Origin: Gammaproteobacteria bacterium
GTDB lineage: Bacteria; Pseudomonadota; Gammaproteobacteria; Nevskiales; Nevskiaceae
DNA length: 64,000 nucleotides
Direction: 5' to 3'
Assembly (NCBI GenBank): GCA_022599775.1
Contig: JAHZLQ010000060.1
Location: forward strand, 1-64,000
In this document: piece after piece, positions 36,274 through 45,787 of the stretch
Numbering within the stretch: the stretch's first letter is position 1
How the letters are laid out: each line of letters opens with the position of its first letter
The notes under the pieces: generated by a model
Told to the model about the DNA's origin: nothing
Databases searched by the model: none
Seen by the model: the letters and a program-made list of their open reading frames with translations, nothing else
Program-made: the position numbers and the translations under genes

Positions 36274-36319
36274 TGGTCGGGGCGACAGGATTCGAACCTG
36301 CGACCCCCTGCCCCCCAGG
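36274..36319 (-). repeat. attR within tRNA-Pro
   Basis: Direct repeat partner of attL (25986-26031), 45 of 46 bases equal. The crossover lies somewhere in this block from the tRNA 3' end to the anticodon arm. Confidence 0.88.
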
Positions 36320-36350
36320 CAGATGCGCTACCAGGCTGCGCTACGCCCCG
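36274..36350 (-). tRNA. proL: tRNA-Pro (anticodon GGG)
   Basis: The 77-nt minus-strand sequence folds as a cloverleaf: acceptor CGGGGCG pairing with CGCCCCG, D-arm GCGCAGCCTGGTAGCGC, anticodon loop CTGGGGG with GGG at 34-36, T-arm with GGTTCGAATCC, and encoded CCA. It is close to bacterial tRNA-Pro(GGG). The first 46 bp of the plus-strand copy are the right attachment site (attR), shared with attL at 25986-26031, so the integration restored a complete tRNA. Confidence 0.96.
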
Positions 36351-36444
36351 ACCGGTCCAAAATCGCGGCGCCAAGGCGACCGCGGCCGCGAATGGTACCG
36401 GATGCGATCCTTGAGAGAAAGCTGTAAACGCCGTGCGGCTTGCT

Positions 36445-36861
36445 TCAGTCGTCGAGCAGCTTGAGGATGTTTTCGAGTTCGCTGCGAATCTGGCGAATTT
36501 CACGACCGCGCGGAGCCGTTGGCTTGCTCCCGCTCATGGCGGCGTCCGGGCCCAGGGTTTCATCGTTGACCGGCTTGGGCATTTCACGCAGGCGCTGACG
36601 CGCACCACCGATGGTGAAACCCTGTTCGTAGAGCAGGCTGCGAATACGGCGCACCATCAGCACATCGTCAATCTGGTAGTAACGACGGTTGCCGCGACGC
36701 TTGACCGGCTTGAGCTGTGGAAATTCCTGCTCCCAATAGCGCAGCACATGCGGTTTGACGGCGCACAATTCACTGACCTCGCCGATCGCGAAATACCGTT
36801 TCTGCGGAATTTCGGGCAGGGGTTCGTGTAGACGCTCGGCTCTGTCAGCCGTCGGTGCCAT
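36445..36861 (-). CDS. MerR-family transcriptional regulator
   Basis: A 138-residue protein with a MerR helix-turn-helix: [20 protein letters not shown] then [20 protein letters not shown] and [20 protein letters not shown]. The C-terminal part is charged with a short coiled coil. The gene starts inside the 3' end of ihfA (17-bp overlap) and lies next to tRNA-Pro, the order found in many gammaproteobacteria. Its effector is unknown. Confidence 0.92.
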
Positions 36862-37141
36862 CGGATTCGACTCTCAGCCTCAGTTTCTGCCCGGGACGGA
36901 ACGTAACCACTCGACGTGCCGAAATTGGTATTTCCTCGCCGGTTTTGGGATTCCGGCCAGGACGCTGGTTTTTGTCACGCAGCTCGAAATTTCCGAACCC
37001 GGACAGCTTAACCTGATCACCTGACTCAAGCGCAGCCCGGACGTCCTCGAAGAACAGATCGACGAACTCCTTGGCTTCGCGTTTGTTCAAGCCCAGCTGC
37101 GCGAACAGCGCTTCGGCCAGTTCCGCCTTGGTCAACGCCAC
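36845..37141 (-). CDS. ihfA: Integration host factor subunit alpha
   Basis: A 98-residue DNA-bending protein: [20 protein letters not shown] at the start, [20 protein letters not shown] with the DNA-intercalating Pro loop, and [14 protein letters not shown] at the end. It pairs with IhfB to bend DNA and helps sigma54 promoters such as that of pilA. It lies downstream of pheT on the same strand, the conserved pheST-ihfA order. Confidence 0.97.
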
Positions 37142-37160
37142 TTTCTAATAACCCCCAAGA

Positions 37161-39518
37161 TCAACCCCTGACGGAGGCCCCCAAAATCCTGCCGAGATGA
37201 GAGACGATCAAGGCAACGGATTCGTCGACATCACGTTCGGTTAGCGTGCGCGAATAGTCTTGAAAAATCAAGCTTAAAGCGACGCTTTTACATCCTTCGG
37301 GTAAGCCTGGCCCAACGTAAACATCAAACACCTTGACCGCTTCCAGCGCGGCCGCCCCGGCGGCGCGCGCCTCGGCTACCAGCCTTGCGGACGGAAGGTC
37401 CATCCGCACGCTTAGTGCCAAGTCACGGCGTGACGACGGATATTCCGACATTTTCGGTCGGTTCGGCAATGCCAGCGGACTGATTCCGGCCCAGTCGAGT
37501 TCGAACAGGACTGGCGCGGACGGCAGATCGAAGTGCGCGACCAGGCGTGGGTGCAGGCTACCCATCCAGCCTAGCGGGTGGCCGCCGCGCAACACGCGAG
37601 CGGTCTGGCCAGGGTGCAGCGCGGCATGCTCGTCGCGCTTCCACTCCAGTTCGCCCAGCACCGCCTCGATATCGCCCTTGGCATCGAAGAAGTCGACCAA
37701 CCGGCCCGGCGATCCCCATTGCTCGGGCAACGCCTCGCCCCAGATCAGACCCGACAGTGACTGGGTTTCGAGGATCTCGCCGTCGCGAAGCTCGTAGCGG
37801 GCACCGATCTCGAACAGGCGGACGCGCCGCGCCTGACGCTGCAGGTTGTACTGCAAGGCCGGCAGCAGCCCGCTCCAGAGCGTGGTGCGCATCACCGACA
37901 TGGTCTCGGCAATCGGATTGTCGAGTTCGATCTCGGCGCCCATCGGCGCCAACAGCGACTGCACGGCGGGATCGACAAAACTGTAGCTCACGGCCTCGTG
38001 GTAGCCGCGTGCGGCCAGGGCGTGCTTGACGCCGGACTCGCTGCGCCGGGTATCGGTGCTGGCGATCGGCATCAGTTCGGCGGCATAGGGTCGCGCCTCG
38101 ATCCGGTCGTAGCCGTAGAGGCGCGCGACTTCCTCGATCAGATCCGCCTCGATCTCCAGGTCGTAGCGCCAGCTCGGAATCTGCGCGTTCCAGAGGCCCG
38201 GTTCGGATGGGTGGGTTTCGATGCCGAGCCGGCCCAGCGACGACTGCACGGTATCAGCATCGATCTCGATCCCGCTGATCATTTCCAGACGCGCCTGTCG
38301 CAGCGACACGCGACGCGGCTCGGGTGTTTCCGCGCCCGCCACCACGACCGGGCCGGCATGGCCGCCGGCCACCTCGATGATCAAACGGCTGGCACGCTCC
38401 AGTGCCAGGCGCTGCAAGGCCGGGTCGACGCCGCGCTCGTAGCGATAGGCGGCATCGGTATGCAGCTTGTGGCGACGCCCGGTTCCGGCAACGGCAGCCG
38501 GCGTGAAACAGGCACTTTCCAGGAACACCCGCGTGGTCGATTCCGAAACTTCCGAATCGCCGCCGCCCATGACCCCGGCCAGCGCCAGCGGCGCCTTGGC
38601 GTCTGCAATCAACAACTCACTCGAATTCGGCTCGATGGTCTGGCCGTTGAGCAGGATCAGCTTCTCGCCGGAGCGACCACGCCGCACCGACACCGGCGCC
38701 GCCAGGCGGTCCGCGTCGAAGGCGTGCATCGGCTGGCCGAGTTCGAACAGCACGTAGTTGGTCACGTCCACCAGCAGTCCCAGACTGCGCACGCCGGTAC
38801 GGCGCAGCCGTTCACGCATCCATTGCGGTGTCTGCGCGTTCGGGTCGATCGCCTCGATGATGCGCCCGGCATAACAGGGACATGCCTGGATATCCTCGAT
38901 TTCGACCGCGATGCTCGCTTCGCTACCGCGCTCGACCGGCTCGATCGCGGGTCGGGTGTAGCCGGTGCCGTAGATCGCCGCCAGTTCGCGCGCCAGGCCG
39001 AGAACGCTGAGTGCATCGCCACGGTTGGGCGTGAATTCGAGTTCGAGTATCCAGTCGTCGAGTTGCAAGGCCGACTCGATCGGCTGACCGGGTTCGAGCG
39101 AAGCATCGAGTTCGAACAGGCCGTCGGACTGTTCCGACAAGCTCAGCTCCTTGGCCGAGCACAACATGCCGCCGGATTCGACGCCCCGCAGCTTGGCGCG
39201 ACCGATCTTCATGCCGCCCGGCAGCGCCGCACCGGGCAGCGCCAGCGGTGCCAGCAGACCCGCGCGTGCATTCGACGCGCCGCACACGATCTGGTGCGAT
39301 CCGCCGTCGCCGGCATCGACCTGGCAGACCCGAAGCCGGTCGGCGTCGGGATGCTGTACGGCTTCGACGATGCGGCCCACGACCACGCCGTCCAGCGGTT
39401 CGGCCAGCAGCGGCACGGCTTCACATTCGATGCCCGCCATGGTCAGGCGGTGCGCGATATCGTGCGCGTCGTCGGGCAGGTCCACCCATTCGCGCAGCCA
39501 GTTGAGGCTGATTTTCAT
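37161..39518 (-). CDS. pheT: Phenylalanyl-tRNA synthetase beta subunit
   Basis: A 785-residue protein of normal length. The start MKISLNWLREWVDLPDDAHD and tRNA-binding region (VVGRIVEAVQHPDADRLRVC) are clear, with the B3/B4 editing region, B5 domain (RYERGVDPALQRLALERASR) and C-terminal anticodon-binding fold (EYPSSRRDLALSVRMDLPSA). It forms the alpha2-beta2 enzyme with PheS. Close to ihfA, consistent with co-transcription. Confidence 0.97.
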   Translation of the reverse strand: MKISLNWLREWVDLPDDAHDIAHRLTMAGIECEAVPLLAEPLDGVVVGRIVEAVQHPDADRLRVCQVDAGDGGSHQIVCGASNARAGLLAPLALPGAALPGGMKIGRAKLRGVESGGMLCSAKELSLSEQSDGLFELDASLEPGQPIESALQLDDWILELEFTPNRGDALSVLGLARELAAIYGTGYTRPAIEPVERGSEASIAVEIEDIQACPCYAGRIIEAIDPNAQTPQWMRERLRRTGVRSLGLLVDVTNYVLFELGQPMHAFDADRLAAPVSVRRGRSGEKLILLNGQTIEPNSSELLIADAKAPLALAGVMGGGDSEVSESTTRVFLESACFTPAAVAGTGRRHKLHTDAAYRYERGVDPALQRLALERASRLIIEVAGGHAGPVVVAGAETPEPRRVSLRQARLEMISGIEIDADTVQSSLGRLGIETHPSEPGLWNAQIPSWRYDLEIEADLIEEVARLYGYDRIEARPYAAELMPIASTDTRRSESGVKHALAARGYHEAVSYSFVDPAVQSLLAPMGAEIELDNPIAETMSVMRTTLWSGLLPALQYNLQRQARRVRLFEIGARYELRDGEILETQSLSGLIWGEALPEQWGSPGRLVDFFDAKGDIEAVLGELEWKRDEHAALHPGQTARVLRGGHPLGWMGSLHPRLVAHFDLPSAPVLFELDWAGISPLALPNRPKMSEYPSSRRDLALSVRMDLPSARLVAEARAAGAAALEAVKVFDVYVGPGLPEGCKSVALSLIFQDYSRTLTERDVDESVALIVSHLGRILGASVRG

Positions 39519-39551
39519 GATTCAGGTTCCAGATTTCGGGTGCACGGGCGT

Positions 39552-40553
39552 TCAGGCGAACTGACGCAGAAAGCGCAGATCGTTGTTGAAGAACAGACGC
39601 AGATCGTCGATGCCGTAACGCCGCATCGCGAGCCGCTCCACACCCATACCAAAGGCATAGCCGGTATAGCGTTCGGAATCGATACCGACGGCTTCGAGCA
39701 CCTTGGGGTTGACGATGCCGCAGCCCAGAACCTCCAGCCAGCGGTCGCCGAGTCGCACGTGCATATCCGCGCCCGGTTCGACGAACGGAAAATACGAGGG
39801 CCGGAACATCACCTCCACATCGGCCTCGAACAGGCCGCGCGCAAAGTTCATAAGGTCGTACTTGAGATCGGCCAGCGATACCCGCTCGGCCACATACAGG
39901 CCCTCCACCTGATGAAACATCGGGCTGTGCGTGCGATCGAAATCGACGCGGTAAACACGGCCCGGACAGATCATGCGAATCGGCGGCTTGCCGCCGGCGG
40001 CGACCAGATGCTTCATCGTCCTGATCTGGACCGGCGAGGTGTGGGTGCGCAGCAGCCGTTCGCCGCCCTGGACATAGAAGGTGTCCTGCATCGCGCGTGC
40101 CGGATGCGCTGGCGGAATATTGAGCGCCTCGAAGTTGTGGTAATCATCCTCGATTTCCGGACCGGCCACGGATTCGAAACCCATGTCGGCGAACAGGCGC
40201 TCGATGCGCTCGATCGTCAAGGAGATCGGATGCAGACCACCGCTGCCCTCACCGCGTCCCGGCAGACTGACATCGATCGTCTCCTCGGCCAGACGGCGCG
40301 ACATCTCGATGTCCTCCAGCGTGCGACGGCGCGTATCGAGCTGCGCCTGCACGGCTTCCTTGGCACGATTGACCCGGTCGCCGAAGGCCTTGCGCTGTTC
40401 CGGCGGCATGCCGCCGAGCTGCTTGAGCAGGCCGGTCAGGCTGCCCTTCTTGCCCAACAACTCCACACGCAGGGCATCGAGGGCACGCAGCTCCGCGCAG
40501 TCGGCGATATCGGTTTGGGCCTGTACGGCCAGGTCTTCTGGGCTGTCGCTCAT
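39552..40553 (-). CDS. pheS: Phenylalanyl-tRNA synthetase alpha subunit
   Basis: A 333-residue class II synthetase subunit. Motifs: [53 protein letters not shown], a motif 2 region [20 protein letters not shown], and motif 3 [21 protein letters not shown] start it at ATG 40553; a TTG at 40571 in frame would add six residues. An intrinsic hairpin between rplT and pheS may attenuate transcription. Confidence 0.97.
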
Positions 40554-40574
40554 GATGATTTGTCTTGGCAAATG

Positions 40575-40604
40575 AAAAAGGGACCGGCATCCGCCGGTCC
40601 CTTT
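40575..40604 (-). terminator. Terminator/attenuator between rplT and pheS
   Basis: On the minus strand AAAGGGACCGGC, loop GGAT, GCCGGTCCCTTT and TTC form a 12-bp perfect stem with a T-run, 22 bp before pheS. In E. coli pheST is attenuated through a Phe-rich leader peptide; no such leader is visible here, so it may be a simple partial terminator. Confidence 0.8.
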
Positions 40605-40664
40605 GAATGAAGCTACGTCTGCGACGTGCTGGCCCCGTGAACCAGGACCGGTACGCCGGCTTGC

Positions 40665-41024
40665 TCAGGCGGCGAGCTGGGCTTGTGCCTGGACCGCCAG
40701 AGCAGCGAACGCAGCCTTGTCATGAATCGCGAGGTCAGCCAGCACCTTGCGATCAAGGACCACGCCGGCCTTGGCGAGTCCGTTGATAAATCGGCTGTAG
40801 CTGAGGCCGTGTTCACGTGCGCCGGCGTTGATGCGCTGAATCCACAAGGCGCGGATTTCACGCTTTTTGACGCGACGGTCGCGGTAGGCGTACTGCCCGG
40901 CCTTGATCGTGGCCTGCTTGGCGGCGCGGAATACCCGGCTTTTGCCGCCGTAGTAACCCTTGGCCTTCTTCAGGACTTTCTTGTGCTTGGCGTGTGCGGT
41001 AACGCCGCGCTTGACTCGTGCCAT
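40665..41024 (-). CDS. rplT: 50S ribosomal protein bL20
   Basis: A 119-residue protein starting [20 protein letters not shown], with [20 protein letters not shown] and [20 protein letters not shown], the universal bL20 sequence. It binds 23S rRNA and in enterobacteria represses the rpmI-rplT operon. Follows rpmI by 16 bp. Confidence 0.98.
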
Positions 41025-41040
41025 CGTTCAGCCCTCCCTC

Positions 41041-41238
41041 TTAGGCGTACGGCAGGAGCTGACGCACTTCACGCACGTCGGACTCATGCACCATGGTCGG
41101 GCCACGCAGCTGACGAATGCGCTTCGCCGGCTTCTTGGTCAGGATGTGGCGCTTGTGCGAGAACGAGCGCTTGAAACCACCCTTGCCGGTGCGCGAAAAA
41201 CGCTTCGCGGCACCGCGGTTGGTCTTGATCTTCGGCAT
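41041..41238 (-). CDS. rpmI: 50S ribosomal protein bL35
   Basis: A 65-residue basic protein: [20 protein letters not shown] then [20 protein letters not shown]. Classic bL35. A strong AAGGAG lies before the ATG. Between infC and rplT, as in most bacteria. Confidence 0.98.
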
Positions 41239-41338
41239 TGCAAACTCCTTTCACTTCTGTTTAATGCTCCATCCGGCAGCGTCATGGACGCATTTTGAAG
41301 GCCGTATGCAGCTTGTTTGAAAATCGACCTGCGCAAGC

Positions 41339-41857
41339 TCAGTGCTTGCGCGGCGTCACCACCATCACCATCTGGCGGCCTTCCATCTTCGGGAACTGCT
41401 CGACCTGTCCGATTTCGTCCAGATCGGCGCGGATGCGTTCCAGCAGATCGCGCCCGAGTTCCTGATGCGCCATTTCGCGGCCGCGGAAGCGAACCGTGAT
41501 CTTGGCCTTGTCACCTTCTTCGATGAATCGCTGCAGATTGCGAAGTTTGACCTGGTAGTCACCGACATCGGTGCCCGGCCGAAACTTCACTTCCTTGATC
41601 TGCACCTGCTTCTGCTTGCGCCGCGCCGCCTGCTGGGCCTTGTCCTTCTGGAAAACGTACTTGCCGTAATCCATGATCTTGCAGACTGGAGGATCTGCAT
41701 TCGGCGACACTTCCACCAGATCCAATCCCAGCTCTTCGGCCTTCGCGAGTGCGTCGCGAGTCATCATGACTCCGACCTGATCTCCCTCGGGGCCAACCAC
41801 ACGTACACGTGGCACGGTGATCTGTTCGTTACGGCGGTCACTCTTTTCCTGCGCGAT
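41339..41857 (-). CDS. infC: Translation initiation factor IF-3 (AUC start)
   Basis: About 172 residues. Family blocks: [80 protein letters not shown], and [20 protein letters not shown]. No ATG, GTG or CTG starts it in a sensible place. A GGAGG at 41870-41866 is followed 8 bp later by ATC at 41857, the in-frame codon. An in-frame TTG at 41872 overlaps the GGAGG, so it is unlikely. Non-canonical AUU/AUC starts are the hallmark of infC and allow IF-3 to limit its own synthesis. Confidence 0.9.
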
Positions 41858-42269
41858 GCTGAATTCCTCCAAATTTCATCGATCCGTCGTCGTCACGACG
41901 GCCCTGCCAACGCTACGCGATCCCGGTGAGGGACGCGAAGCCCGCGAATTCTATAGACCTCACCGCCCGGACTCAAGCGGGACGCCAGCAACAGCGTCCC
42001 GACATGGCGACAATGACGCTATGCGACGAGGGAAAATGTTAACAGTCGGTTCAGGCATTCAACCTTAACGTGCGATCCACATTCAGGTTCCGCCACGGGC
42101 CGCTTGCATTTCCGAACGGCTCAGGCGCCCGGAAGCCGCAGCTCCCACGCCGGTCTGAAGCACAGATACTCAAAATTTACATTCGCTACACGGGGTCAGT
42201 CGGGAGGGCGCAGTCGCTTGTCGTCGACTACTCTCCGCAGTACACCCCATGCCTATGAGGAGCCTAGGG
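41858..42269. other. Intergenic region between infC and the arylsulfotransferase gene
   Basis: About 410 bp without a gene; thrS, usually upstream of infC, is not here. It must hold the infC promoter on the minus strand and that of the sulfotransferase locus on the plus strand. A moderately AT-rich patch at 42030-42070 (GAAAATGTTAACAG) might be part of a promoter. Nothing else was recognised. Confidence 0.45.
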
Positions 42270-43613
42270 ATGCTGGACCGTGTTGGTGATGCGCTCTACA
42301 AACTTGTACTGATTCTGTGCATCGCCTTTCTGGCGTTCTGCGCCGGCAGCTTCGTGATTCTTGGAAAGGTGTTTCCCTACGAGCTGTTCCGGGACGCCTA
42401 CCTCGCCGGCAACGCGCTGATGCACCAGCGCACCGATTATATCGATCCGGTCAAGACCGACCTCTACGGCAAAGCCAGCACGCCGCAGCGCGGTGTCGTG
42501 AGCTACGACCCGGATCGGGTCCAGAGCGGCCTGACGCTGTACACCTCCGGCCACACCCAGAAAGCGTTCCTGATCGACTTCCAGGGCAATGTGGTTCACG
42601 AGTGGTACCTGCCCTACAGCAAGGTCTGGGACAAGAGTTCGGCCGTCACCGACCCGGTCGATGACGTCAACACCTATTTCCGCAAGGCGCTGATGTACCC
42701 GAACGGCGACCTGCTGGTGGTCTACGACGGTGTCGGCGACACCCCGCACGGCTATGGCCTGGTCAAGATGGATCGCGATTCCAAGCTGATCTGGAAGTAC
42801 CTGGAGCGCGGCCATCACGATATCGACATCGCGCCGGACGGCCGCGTGTTCACCCTGACCCATGCGATCACGCATCACGTGATCGAAAAAGCGACCTTCC
42901 TGCAGCCGCCGCGAATCGACGACTATCTGGTCGAGCTGTCCCCCGAAGGCAAGCAGCTCAAGAAGATTCCGCTGCTGGAGACCTTCGTCAACTCACCGTT
43001 CCGCGGCATGCTCGACATCGTGCCCTGGTATCTGCTGGACGCGGGCGATTTCCTGCATACCAACGATGTGGACTACGTCACCGCCGAGATGGCCGCAGTC
43101 TTCGACTTCGCCAAGGAAGGTCAGGTGCTGATCTCCATGCGCGAGCCCGGGACGCTCGCATTGATTGATCTCGAACAGGAAAAGATGACTTGGGCGATCC
43201 GTGGCCCGTGGATCGGTCAACACGATCCGGACATGCTGCCCAATGGCCATTTCCTGCTGTTCGACAACAACGGGCATTTCGGTCCCGGTGGTCGCTCCGA
43301 GATCCTGGAGTTCGACCCCAAGACCTATGCAGTGAGCTGGAGCTACACCGGCACCGAGGACAAGCCGTTTCACAGCGTCATTCGCGGCGCTCAGGAACGT
43401 CTCGCCAATGGCAACACCTTGATCAGCGACGCCCAGAACGGGCGCATGCTCGAGGTCACCCCGGACAAGCGCGTCGCCTGGGAATACATGAATCCCGAAC
43501 GTCGCGGCGACAAGGATGCCTATATCCCGATCATCTCCGGCGCCCATCGGGTAGACCCGACGACGCTGGATGCCGATTTCCGGAATACCCTGAAGACCCC
43601 CCAAGGAGGCTAG
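42270..43613 (+). CDS. Arylsulfotransferase (ASST)-like membrane-anchored protein
   Basis: About 447 residues from the ATG at 42270, chosen because AGGAG lies 7 bp before it; earlier in-frame ATGs at 42249 and 42255 have no such site. One N-terminal membrane segment (LVLILCIAFLAFCAGSFVIL) precedes a beta-propeller of the ASST/PQQ type, with GLTLYTSGHTQKAFLIDFQG, WKYLERGHHDIDIAPDGRVF, DFLHTNDVDYV and WIGQHDPDMLPNGHFLLFDN. ASST enzymes move sulfuryl groups between phenolic compounds without PAPS. Here a PAPS-type sulfotransferase is encoded three genes downstream. Confidence 0.8.
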   Translation: MLDRVGDALYKLVLILCIAFLAFCAGSFVILGKVFPYELFRDAYLAGNALMHQRTDYIDPVKTDLYGKASTPQRGVVSYDPDRVQSGLTLYTSGHTQKAFLIDFQGNVVHEWYLPYSKVWDKSSAVTDPVDDVNTYFRKALMYPNGDLLVVYDGVGDTPHGYGLVKMDRDSKLIWKYLERGHHDIDIAPDGRVFTLTHAITHHVIEKATFLQPPRIDDYLVELSPEGKQLKKIPLLETFVNSPFRGMLDIVPWYLLDAGDFLHTNDVDYVTAEMAAVFDFAKEGQVLISMREPGTLALIDLEQEKMTWAIRGPWIGQHDPDMLPNGHFLLFDNNGHFGPGGRSEILEFDPKTYAVSWSYTGTEDKPFHSVIRGAQERLANGNTLISDAQNGRMLEVTPDKRVAWEYMNPERRGDKDAYIPIISGAHRVDPTTLDADFRNTLKTPQGG

Positions 43614-43616
43614 ATC

Positions 43617-43889
43617 ATGAAAGCCCAAATCCCGAACCTGACCCGTCGTACCCTCCAACTGGCGCCTGTGGCTCTGGCCCTCGCAGTGGTCGCCGTTCCG
43701 GCCCAGGCCTATGTCGGCCCCGGCGCCGGGCTGAGCCTGCTCAGCGCCCTGTGGGCGCTGGTCGCCGCAATCTTCGCGGCCGTGGCGTTCATCGTGATGT
43801 GGCCGGTGCGCAAGATGCTCAAGCAGCGCAAGGCGGCCGCCAACAACGGCAACGACAACAGCGCCACCAACGACAAACAGGCGCCGTAA
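43617..43889 (+). CDS. Small membrane protein with YVGPGAG motif
   Basis: A 90-residue protein: an export-like N-terminus (LAPVALALAVVAVPAQA) then YVGPGAGLSLLSALWALVAA and a long hydrophobic helix (IFAAVAFIVMWPVRKMLK), with a polar C-terminal tail rich in Asn. The YVGPGAG stretch right after the signal is a recurring feature of small membrane proteins. Three bp after the ASST-like gene, so likely translated with it. Function unknown. Confidence 0.75.
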   Translation: MKAQIPNLTRRTLQLAPVALALAVVAVPAQAYVGPGAGLSLLSALWALVAAIFAAVAFIVMWPVRKMLKQRKAAANNGNDNSATNDKQAP

Positions 43890-43893
43890 GCCG

Positions 43894-44631
43894 GTGAGCA
43901 TGGGCCTGCTCGACCTGCCGGCACCGCTGTTCTACTGGATCGATGGCGCCACCGCTGGCGCCATCCCGGCCACGCTCCGACTCTGGATCTGGGGCGTGGC
44001 CGGCGGTGTCGCCTCGATGGGACTGTATTGGCTGCTGTCTCCGCAGAAGCGCATTTCCGCGACCAAACGCGAGCTGGCCGAGGCGCAGCAGGCGCTCAAC
44101 AGCTTCGACGGCGAATTCTCCGAAGCCGCGCCGATGATGCGGCGCATGCTCGGGCTCGCGTTCAAGCAGGTCGGCATCGTGGTGATACCGGCCGTGATCG
44201 CGATGGCGCCGGTGCTGTGCCTGCTGGCCTGGATGAGCACCGCCTACGGCTATTCGTGGCCGGCGCCCGGCGCCACCGTCGAAACCCGCACGCACCCGGA
44301 ACAGGGCTACAGCGCGCAATGGGCCTCGATGCCGGGTTCGGACAACGCGGCCCATGTCCTGATCACCGACGAGTCCGGCAGCACGCTGGAAGACCATGCC
44401 ATGGACAAGGCCGTGCCGGTGCTGCACAAACGTGCCTGGTGGAATGCCCTGATCGGCAATCCGGCCGGCTATCTGCCAGAGGAACTGGCCGTGGATGCGG
44501 TCGAGATCGAATTGCCGGAAAAGCACTATCTCGGCTTCGGGCCGGGCTGGCTGCGCGGCTGGGAATTCAGCTTCATCCTGGCCGTCACCATCGGCGCGCT
44601 CGGGCTCAAGCTCGGCTTCCGCATCGAATAA
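43894..44631 (+). CDS. EMC3/TMCO1 (DUF106)-like membrane protein, Oxa1 superfamily
   Basis: A 245-residue protein with three to four membrane segments: LWIWGVAGGVASMGLYWLL, then a cytosolic coiled-coil hairpin (SPQKRISATKRELAEAQQAL, SEAAPMMRRMLGLAFKQV), GIVVIPAVIAMAPVLCLLAW, and a last one near the C-terminus (FSFILAVTIGALGLKLGF). The helix-coiled coil-helix layout is that of DUF106/EMC3 proteins, known as membrane insertases in archaea and eukaryotes. A large polar loop (about residues 125-215) sits between the second and the last helix. Start GTG 43894 or ATG 43900. Confidence 0.65.
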   Translation: MSMGLLDLPAPLFYWIDGATAGAIPATLRLWIWGVAGGVASMGLYWLLSPQKRISATKRELAEAQQALNSFDGEFSEAAPMMRRMLGLAFKQVGIVVIPAVIAMAPVLCLLAWMSTAYGYSWPAPGATVETRTHPEQGYSAQWASMPGSDNAAHVLITDESGSTLEDHAMDKAVPVLHKRAWWNALIGNPAGYLPEELAVDAVEIELPEKHYLGFGPGWLRGWEFSFILAVTIGALGLKLGFRIE

Positions 44632-44650
44632 AACACGCGAGGGCGATCGC

Positions 44651-45787
44651 ATGAGCGAAGCCAGCAAGACATCCGAATTCGAGGTTCCGGGCTGGGTCGA
44701 CTGGCTCGGTAAGTCCGTCAACCAACACCCGGGGTTCTGGGTGCGCATGGGCAACCTCGAAAGCTCGGTACTCGACGACAAGATCTCCAGCATCCGAACC
44801 GAGGCGCCGATCTACGTCAGCGGCCTGGCACGGTCCGGCAGCACCATCCTGCTGGAGATCCTCGCCGAGCACGAACAGTGCGCGACGCATGCCTACAAAG
44901 ACTTTCCGCTGGTGCTGACGCCGTTCTTCTGGAACTGGTTTCTGGACCGCTCGCGCAGCGGGCAGGAACAGAAGATCGAACGCGCCCACGGCGACGGCAT
45001 CGAGGTTTCGCCCGACAGTCCCGAAGCGGTGGAAGAACCCGTATGGATGGCCTTCTTCCCGGAACTGCACAGCTCGCTGCGCAGCAATGTGCTCGACGCC
45101 AGCACCGAAGCGCCCAGGTTCGAACACTTCTACCGCAATCATCTGCGCAAGATGCTGTGGCTACGTCAGGGTTCACGCTATCTGGCCAAGGGCAACTACA
45201 ACATCACGCGCCTGGAGTACCTGCTCAAGCTGTTTCCGGACGCGCGCTTCGTGATTCCGGTGCGCGAGCCGGCAGCGCATATCGCCTCGCTCAAAAGTCA
45301 GCACGCACGCTTCTGCGAACTGCACCGCGAAGATCCGCGCGCCTTGCGCTACATGCAACGTGTCGGGCACTACGAATTCGGGCTTGATCGCCGCCCCGTC
45401 AACATCGGTGAAGGCTCGCAGGCGGCATCCATCCTGCAAGCCTGGGTCGAAGGGCGTGAGGTCGAAGGCCTGGCCCGCTTGTGGAACGACGTGCATCGTT
45501 TCATCGCGCAGCGGCTGGACGCCTCGCCGGCCCTGCGCGAGGCCTGCCTCGTGGTGCGCCATGAAGACCTCTGCGCCTCGCCGCGCGAAACCCTGGGCAA
45601 ACTGTTTTCGCACTGCCGGCTCGATCCCGGCAACACACTGCTGGAGAGCGCCGCGGCGCGCCTGCGGCCCTCGTCCTCGGCCACGCCGCTGGCGGACGAG
45701 GACATGCAGACCGTCGCCCGGCTCACCGGCGAAACGGCCGGTCATTTCGGCTACGGCGACCACGCGCGGACGCAACTGGCGGTGTAG
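44651..45787 (+). CDS. Sulfotransferase family protein (PAPS-dependent)
   Basis: A 378-residue cytoplasmic enzyme. The 5'-phosphosulfate loop is IYVSGLARSGSTILLEILAE, with a 3'-phosphate-binding region around FPDARFVIPVREPAAHIASL. The substrate is not evident; the length and the NHLRKMLWLRQGSRYLAKGN insert resemble bacterial sulfotransferase-3 type proteins. Its location in one operon with an ASST-like protein and two membrane proteins suggests sulfation of a membrane or secreted molecule. Confidence 0.88.
   Translation: MSEASKTSEFEVPGWVDWLGKSVNQHPGFWVRMGNLESSVLDDKISSIRTEAPIYVSGLARSGSTILLEILAEHEQCATHAYKDFPLVLTPFFWNWFLDRSRSGQEQKIERAHGDGIEVSPDSPEAVEEPVWMAFFPELHSSLRSNVLDASTEAPRFEHFYRNHLRKMLWLRQGSRYLAKGNYNITRLEYLLKLFPDARFVIPVREPAAHIASLKSQHARFCELHREDPRALRYMQRVGHYEFGLDRRPVNIGEGSQAASILQAWVEGREVEGLARLWNDVHRFIAQRLDASPALREACLVVRHEDLCASPRETLGKLFSHCRLDPGNTLLESAAARLRPSSSATPLADEDMQTVARLTGETAGHFGYGDHARTQLAV

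Follow-up and report, generated by a model that had tools for sequence, protein, structure and literature searches.

A conserved four-gene unit pairing two sulfotransferases with an Oxa1-type membrane protein suggests a possible sulfuryl relay across the inner membrane of Proteobacteria

In the synthesis of the Streptomyces antibiotic caprazamycin, a triketide pyrone is sulfated by Cpz8, which depends on 3'-phosphoadenosine 5'-phosphosulfate (PAPS), and the sulfate is then moved on by Cpz4, an arylsulfate sulfotransferase (ASST) (PMC6731281, PMC4257720). For most bacterial ASSTs, natural substrates and cellular role are not known, according to a 2026 review (PMC13426309). We analyzed a stretch of 64,000 nucleotides from a gammaproteobacterium of the Nevskiaceae (contig JAHZLQ010000060.1, positions 1 to 64,000; hereafter the window) that carries a four-gene unit at 42249-45787 on the + strand. 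The genes encode, in order, an ASST-like enzyme, a mini membrane protein designated YV, a third protein designated P3, and a PAPS-type sulfotransferase designated ST, with intergenic gaps of 3, 4, and 19 bases, as expected from an original prediction that had claimed a tight four-gene set from the letters alone. The locus ties an ASST to a likely sulfate source within one operon, and the natural role of an ASST thereby becomes a question that can be tested by gene deletion.

The unit resembles the caprazamycin pair in that a PAPS-type sulfotransferase is coupled to an ASST, and among solved structures Cpz4 comes closest to the ASST of the window, by far its best PDB match (Z 31.9, 318 residues). 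Cpz8 and ST are likened by enzyme type rather than by sequence comparison. Caprazamycin synthesis is an antibiotic pathway in which a type III polyketide synthase makes the carrier, whereas the window unit has no carrier gene, includes two membrane proteins, and is widespread in Proteobacteria. Cpz8 acts ahead of Cpz4 in that pathway, the only such relay known in which sulfate goes from a PAPS enzyme to an aryl-sulfate carrier and on to an ASST, so the pairing of ST with ASST has a biochemical precedent.

To assess conservation, one genome per species was scanned for P3 across 84,980 species, which yielded 39 named loci from Gamma-, Alpha-, and Deltaproteobacteria. All four genes were present in 24 of the 39, arranged as ASST-YV-P3-ST in 23 and reordered in one; three of the 39 loci were interrupted by contig ends. 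The four genes recurred at ~40-50% identity in other families and classes. Within a sample of 369 gammaproteobacterial genomes, P3, YV (at least 104 bits), and the ASST subfamily (at least 500 bits) were confined to the same nine. Mirror-tree analysis indicated that the distance matrices correlated for every gene pair (r 0.59-0.79), most strongly for P3 and ASST (r 0.79). Because the same set recurs in 24 of 39 loci and its members' distances correlate, the four-gene arrangement is not chance, and the conservation elsewhere that was proposed as a check on the locus was borne out. No relative of P3 was found in the viral contigs searched.

The ASST-like enzyme (42249-43613, + strand) scored above the cut-offs of PF14269 (3e-29, 102.8 bits, cut-off 27) and PF05935 (4.6e-11, 42.8 bits, cut-off 24.2). 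Homologue starts cluster near an in-frame ATG at 42270, so that either 42249 or 42270 may be the start. Structures here and below are predicted models, and topology was read from hydropathy and charge. The ASST model (pLDDT, the predicted local distance difference test score, of 91) consisted of a beta-propeller, periplasmic by prediction, with an N-terminal membrane anchor at residues ~5-39. After Cpz4, its second structural match was the E. coli ASST (Z 25.4-25.5), and other propellers scored Z 18-22; Cpz4 was also the only ASST retrieved by profile search (1.3e-7). All 32 family members compared share residues H189, H190, H270, N272, R298, and H325 without variation, and these form a candidate active site. 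R298 and H325 align by profile to an Arg and a His of Cpz4, and H325 (43221-43223, + strand) is the candidate for the sulfated catalytic histidine. The H270-x-N272 motif (43056-43064, + strand) is a candidate for H356/N358 of the E. coli ASST by motif spacing only. Like the ASST of E. coli CFT073 (3ELQ, PF05935), the window enzyme has a six-bladed propeller, with the HxN, Arg, and His candidates invariant in its family. Unlike 3ELQ, its model lacks an N-terminal beta-sandwich domain and has a membrane anchor, its sequence has no periplasmic cysteine, and its gene stands in a fixed operon with ST. As an ASST, it would carry out PAPS-independent sulfuryl transfer.

The E. coli ASST is linked to dsbL/dsbI. 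The only echo of this link was a dsbB gene adjoining the YV end of the set at three loci of one family (L018:4890-5387, L024:4636-5139, and L026). A relation to E. coli assT-dsbL-dsbI was set aside, as periplasmic cysteines are absent from the window ASST and dsbB was recurrent in that one family only.

ST (44651-45787, + strand) is cytoplasmic by prediction, and no transmembrane (TM) segment was found in it by sequence topology analysis. It scored above the PF13469 cut-off (3.2e-20, 73.8 bits, cut-off 27), and its profile matched tyrosylprotein sulfotransferases, the nearest solved relatives (8.6e-9). The longest open reading frame begins at 44495 and overlaps P3, but homologues use the start at 44651. 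The 5'-phosphosulfate-binding loop GLARSGST (44822-44845, + strand) was conserved in 11 aligned members, with G58, A60, R61, G63, and T65 invariant in all 11; R205 and S213 of the 3'-phosphate site, in a region aligned to tyrosylprotein sulfotransferase, were likewise invariant. These motifs suggest that ST uses PAPS. Genes for adenosine 5'-phosphosulfate kinase were present in 14 of 15 genomes, and the window's own genome has two.

The Oxa1 superfamily has been described as prokaryotic YidC plus eukaryotic TMCO1, EMC3, and GET1 (PMC8675477). P3 (43894-44631, + strand) is a protein of 245 amino acids as read from a GTG at 43894; its homologues begin at an in-frame ATG at 43900, the likely start. 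Neither P3 nor YV matched any curated family above cut-off. Single-sequence searches of Pfam and NCBIfam with P3 gave no match, Foldseek gave no significant PDB match, and the relation to Oxa1 was visible only by profile search and by a second look with VIA-align. The P3 profile matched MJ0480 (5c8j), an archaeal YidC-like protein, over positions 3-118 (E 8.1e-8). The model, built from the alignment, was confident (pLDDT 92.3) and placed in order an N-terminal peripheral helix, a TM helix at 26-48, a hairpin at 51-91, a second TM helix ending at 117, a beta domain at 119-205, and a last TM helix at 223-242. It thus contained the three-TM core and the helical hairpin after H1 by which the Oxa1 superfamily is recognized; the hairpin, between H1 and H4 (44044-44166, + strand), is cytoplasmic by prediction. 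The top structural matches among 999 candidates were to TMCO1 (Z 8.8 over 137 residues at 3.9 A, and 8.7 over 136 residues), followed by GET1 (Z 7.4) and, among matches tied within 1, YidC (Z 7.2), and all of these covered almost the whole of P3. Given that P3 is helical, these scores are modest, as unrelated helical proteins score up to 7.3, and the MJ0480 profile match is therefore the stronger argument. Together with the model, it upheld the Oxa1-type layout that had been read from the third gene.

Like YidC, EMC3, TMCO1, GET1, and MJ0480, P3 has three TM helices, preceded by a peripheral helix at the N terminus and with a helical hairpin between the first and second. It differs from them in its linkage to a sulfotransferase, in an extracytoplasmic beta domain of ~87 residues, and in having no conserved central charge. 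The beta domain (44248-44508, + strand), between TM2 and TM3, occupies the h4h5 position, which is hypervariable in Oxa1 proteins (PMC8675477), and contains WWNALIGNPAGYL at 44437-44475, nearly invariant across 46 sequences. In the YidC family, a positively charged residue is conserved at the middle of the groove (PMC8920935); the charged residues conserved in P3 (K58, R221, and K239) lie at helix ends. P3 is not YidC proper, as only 3 of 46 members touch PF02096, with a best E of 0.013, below the cut-off. P3 looks like a previously undescribed bacterial branch of the Oxa1 superfamily, one that would be tied to chemistry beyond protein insertion.

YV (43617-43889, + strand) has a signal peptide, one TM helix, and a basic C-terminal tail. 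Its YVGPGAG motif (43710-43730, + strand) begins with a Tyr that is the predicted mature residue 1, and Ala-Tyr was found at the predicted signal-peptide cleavage point in all 45 loci with YV. No mention of the motif was found in the open-access papers searched. Other loci (L091:7045-7275, L092:7100-7408, L095:6258-6497, and L093:7203-7478) encode related mini proteins whose mature end carries a Y[LI]DP motif, in most cases AYLDPG. Their genes either adjoin those of an 'ASFRDPSG/ASFRDPMG' protein and a membrane protein with several TM segments or stand within an apparent phosphonate-type cluster, as named from translations. Mini membrane proteins of this kind may make up a wider family that serves envelope group-transfer systems.

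Variants of the locus bear on how its members work together. At the distant locus L087:5394-6908, a 3TM membrane protein in the P3 position is fused to ST in a single reading frame of 504 amino acids, such that ST is joined to the end of the 3TM protein predicted to be cytoplasmic. When profiles were compared, no homology was detectable between P3 and the small 3TM proteins of the distant loci L086-L088, and the latter are thus analogous to P3 in position and topology only. ASST number also varied. Three genomes of one family (G142, G266, and G369) carry 2 to 4 ASST copies and a single ST, YV, and P3; on one G266 contig, three ASST genes are clustered (L119:1126-6852) apart from the only ST-YV-P3 set of that genome. 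The genomes of L034, L039, and L050 have a YV-P3-ST trio and 1 to 3 ASSTs elsewhere. One donor system feeding several transferases explains the excess of ASST simply. Wenzhouxiangella and its relatives have, beside P3, a PF01663 enzyme of the type I phosphodiesterase family in place of ASST. It is a predicted lipoprotein encoded just before P3 at seven loci (L053, L054, L057, L063, L040, L060, and L061), and ST and YV are kept in most. No ASST of the set's family was found in the genomes behind L053, L054, L057, L059, L060, L061, and L063, in which ST is kept. Because P3 is retained in genomes without ASST, it is not an ASST-specific factor. In Wenzhouxiangella sediminis, cysD- and cysN-like genes for sulfate activation, named from translation, lie a few kb downstream of such a phosphodiesterase-type P3 locus (L063:15388-18201).

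A second recurrent association was with genes for osmoregulated periplasmic glucans. MdoG (OpgG) was the most recurrent neighbour family, with 5 of 122 neighbour proteins scanned, two of the five (opgG of L019 and L020) having been added after they were noticed. An opgG gene lies near the set at L019, L020, L035, L062, L046, and L087, which represent four lineages; the Poisson probability of this is ~4e-5 to 6e-3, assuming 0.18-0.7 expected by chance. At L087 the order on a single strand is opgG-opgH-ASST-YV-(3TM-ST). Across genomes, opgG was present in 6 of 9 with P3 and in 53 of 360 others (Fisher p = 0.0008, uncorrected for phylogeny), and two copies of opgG occur in the genome of the window, away from the set. 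This linkage, which the original prediction did not anticipate, supports glucan sulfation in some lineages, and the ASST acceptor in at least some lineages is plausibly an osmoregulated periplasmic glucan. Other acceptors must exist, since three genomes with P3 have no opgG. The E. coli enzymes OpgB, OpgC, and OpgE likewise substitute periplasmic glucans at the inner membrane, and for OpgB and OpgE the donor comes from membrane lipids (PMC3818809); here, in contrast, an ASST would attach sulfate. Sulfate would add negative charge to the glucan, as phosphoglycerol or succinyl does in E. coli. No report of sulfated osmoregulated periplasmic glucans was found in the open-access papers searched; if the link is true, sulfate would be a new substituent of these glucans.

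The reading we favour, though with somewhat less than even confidence, is that the four genes form a transmembrane sulfuryl relay. Cytoplasmic ST would sulfate a membrane-compatible carrier from PAPS, as its family and motifs suggest; the carrier would most simply be a phenolic or lipid-like compound already in the cell that stays in or crosses the inner membrane. ST would sit against P3 on its cytoplasmic side, and P3 and YV would allow the carrier, once sulfated, to get to the leaflet facing the periplasm, on the model of lipid scrambling by the Oxa1 fold. Insertases with the Oxa1 fold have been reported to scramble lipids in vitro (PMC10491306), and a transport role for P3 and YV is, by this analogy, possible. 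Finally, periplasmic ASST would accept the sulfate via H325 and pass it to an envelope acceptor, judging from its fold and invariant residues. The original suggestion that a molecule is sulfated inside and handed across the membrane is in line with the topologies predicted, with the 3TM-ST fusion, with the excess of ASST over ST, and with the Cpz8/Cpz4 precedent, and to that extent it stands as a candidate. A more specific proposal is that P3 and YV form an Oxa1-fold machine that carries a sulfated small molecule or lipid, rather than protein, and feeds swappable periplasmic transferases, and that this is the missing natural donor system of ASSTs, sulfating periplasmic glucans; we regard this version as unlikely.

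Several observations weigh against the relay. The unit contains no carrier-making gene of the kind that caprazamycin has in its type III polyketide synthase, and none was seen among the top neighbour families listed, although no genome-wide search was made. A polar path through P3 is not evident, because its TM helices have no conserved mid-membrane charge. Most loci lack the opg link, as do three genomes with P3 that belong to a single family. No activity is known from the open-access literature for any member of the set, and ST and ASST could separately modify different acceptors. A parallel arrangement, in which ST sulfates an envelope molecule at one group inside, P3 and YV export the half-made molecule, and ASST sulfates another group outside from external aryl sulfates, agrees with the intact appearance of both enzymes and with the general ability of ASSTs to accept simple aryl sulfates in vitro (PMC13426309). 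However, ASST copies exceed ST, the closest structural homologue, Cpz4, acts in series with a PAPS enzyme, and strict co-occurrence fits donor supply more naturally, which leaves parallel action improbable.

P3 and YV might instead serve as a dedicated insertase, chaperone, or scaffold for the ASST anchor, the YV helix, and ST, with the carrier not moved by P3. The Oxa1-superfamily fold and the strong P3-ASST correlation favour such a role, the 3TM-ST fusion suits scaffolding as well as it does transport, and YV could be a partner of the kind seen for EMC3, GET1, and TMCO1, which pair with small TM proteins via helix H5 (PMC8675477). Yet P3, YV, and ST are kept in genomes without any ASST, the PF01663 partners found there look like lipoproteins that need no Oxa1-type insertion, and ASST itself has a single plain N-terminal anchor. 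An insertase dedicated to ASST or to the product of the locus, as first proposed alongside the relay, is accordingly less likely, and the broader insertase or scaffold role is a minority possibility. It is very improbable that YV itself is the carrier, its mature N-terminal Tyr being sulfated to serve ASST as a protein-bound aryl sulfate. This would explain a unit without a carrier-synthesis gene, and it agrees with the invariance of the Tyr beside the predicted signal-peptidase site, with the tyrosylprotein sulfotransferases as nearest solved relatives of ST, and with the Tyr-containing peptides among substrates tested with ASSTs (PMC13426309). The motif, however, would be exposed to the periplasm, whereas ST is predicted to be cytoplasmic, and YLDPG mini proteins share the Tyr without these sulfotransferases adjacent, so the residue may be structural.

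The GC content of the locus, overall and at third codon positions, was near that of its surroundings, giving no sign of recent import. Of the recurrent "neighbour clusters", most proved to be shadow frames of the four genes themselves and were discarded. Beside the set, the window carries an infC-rplT-pheS-pheT-merR-tRNA-Pro block (36274-42248), whose opposite (merR) end is where the YV-P3-ST trio is found at L034 and L039.

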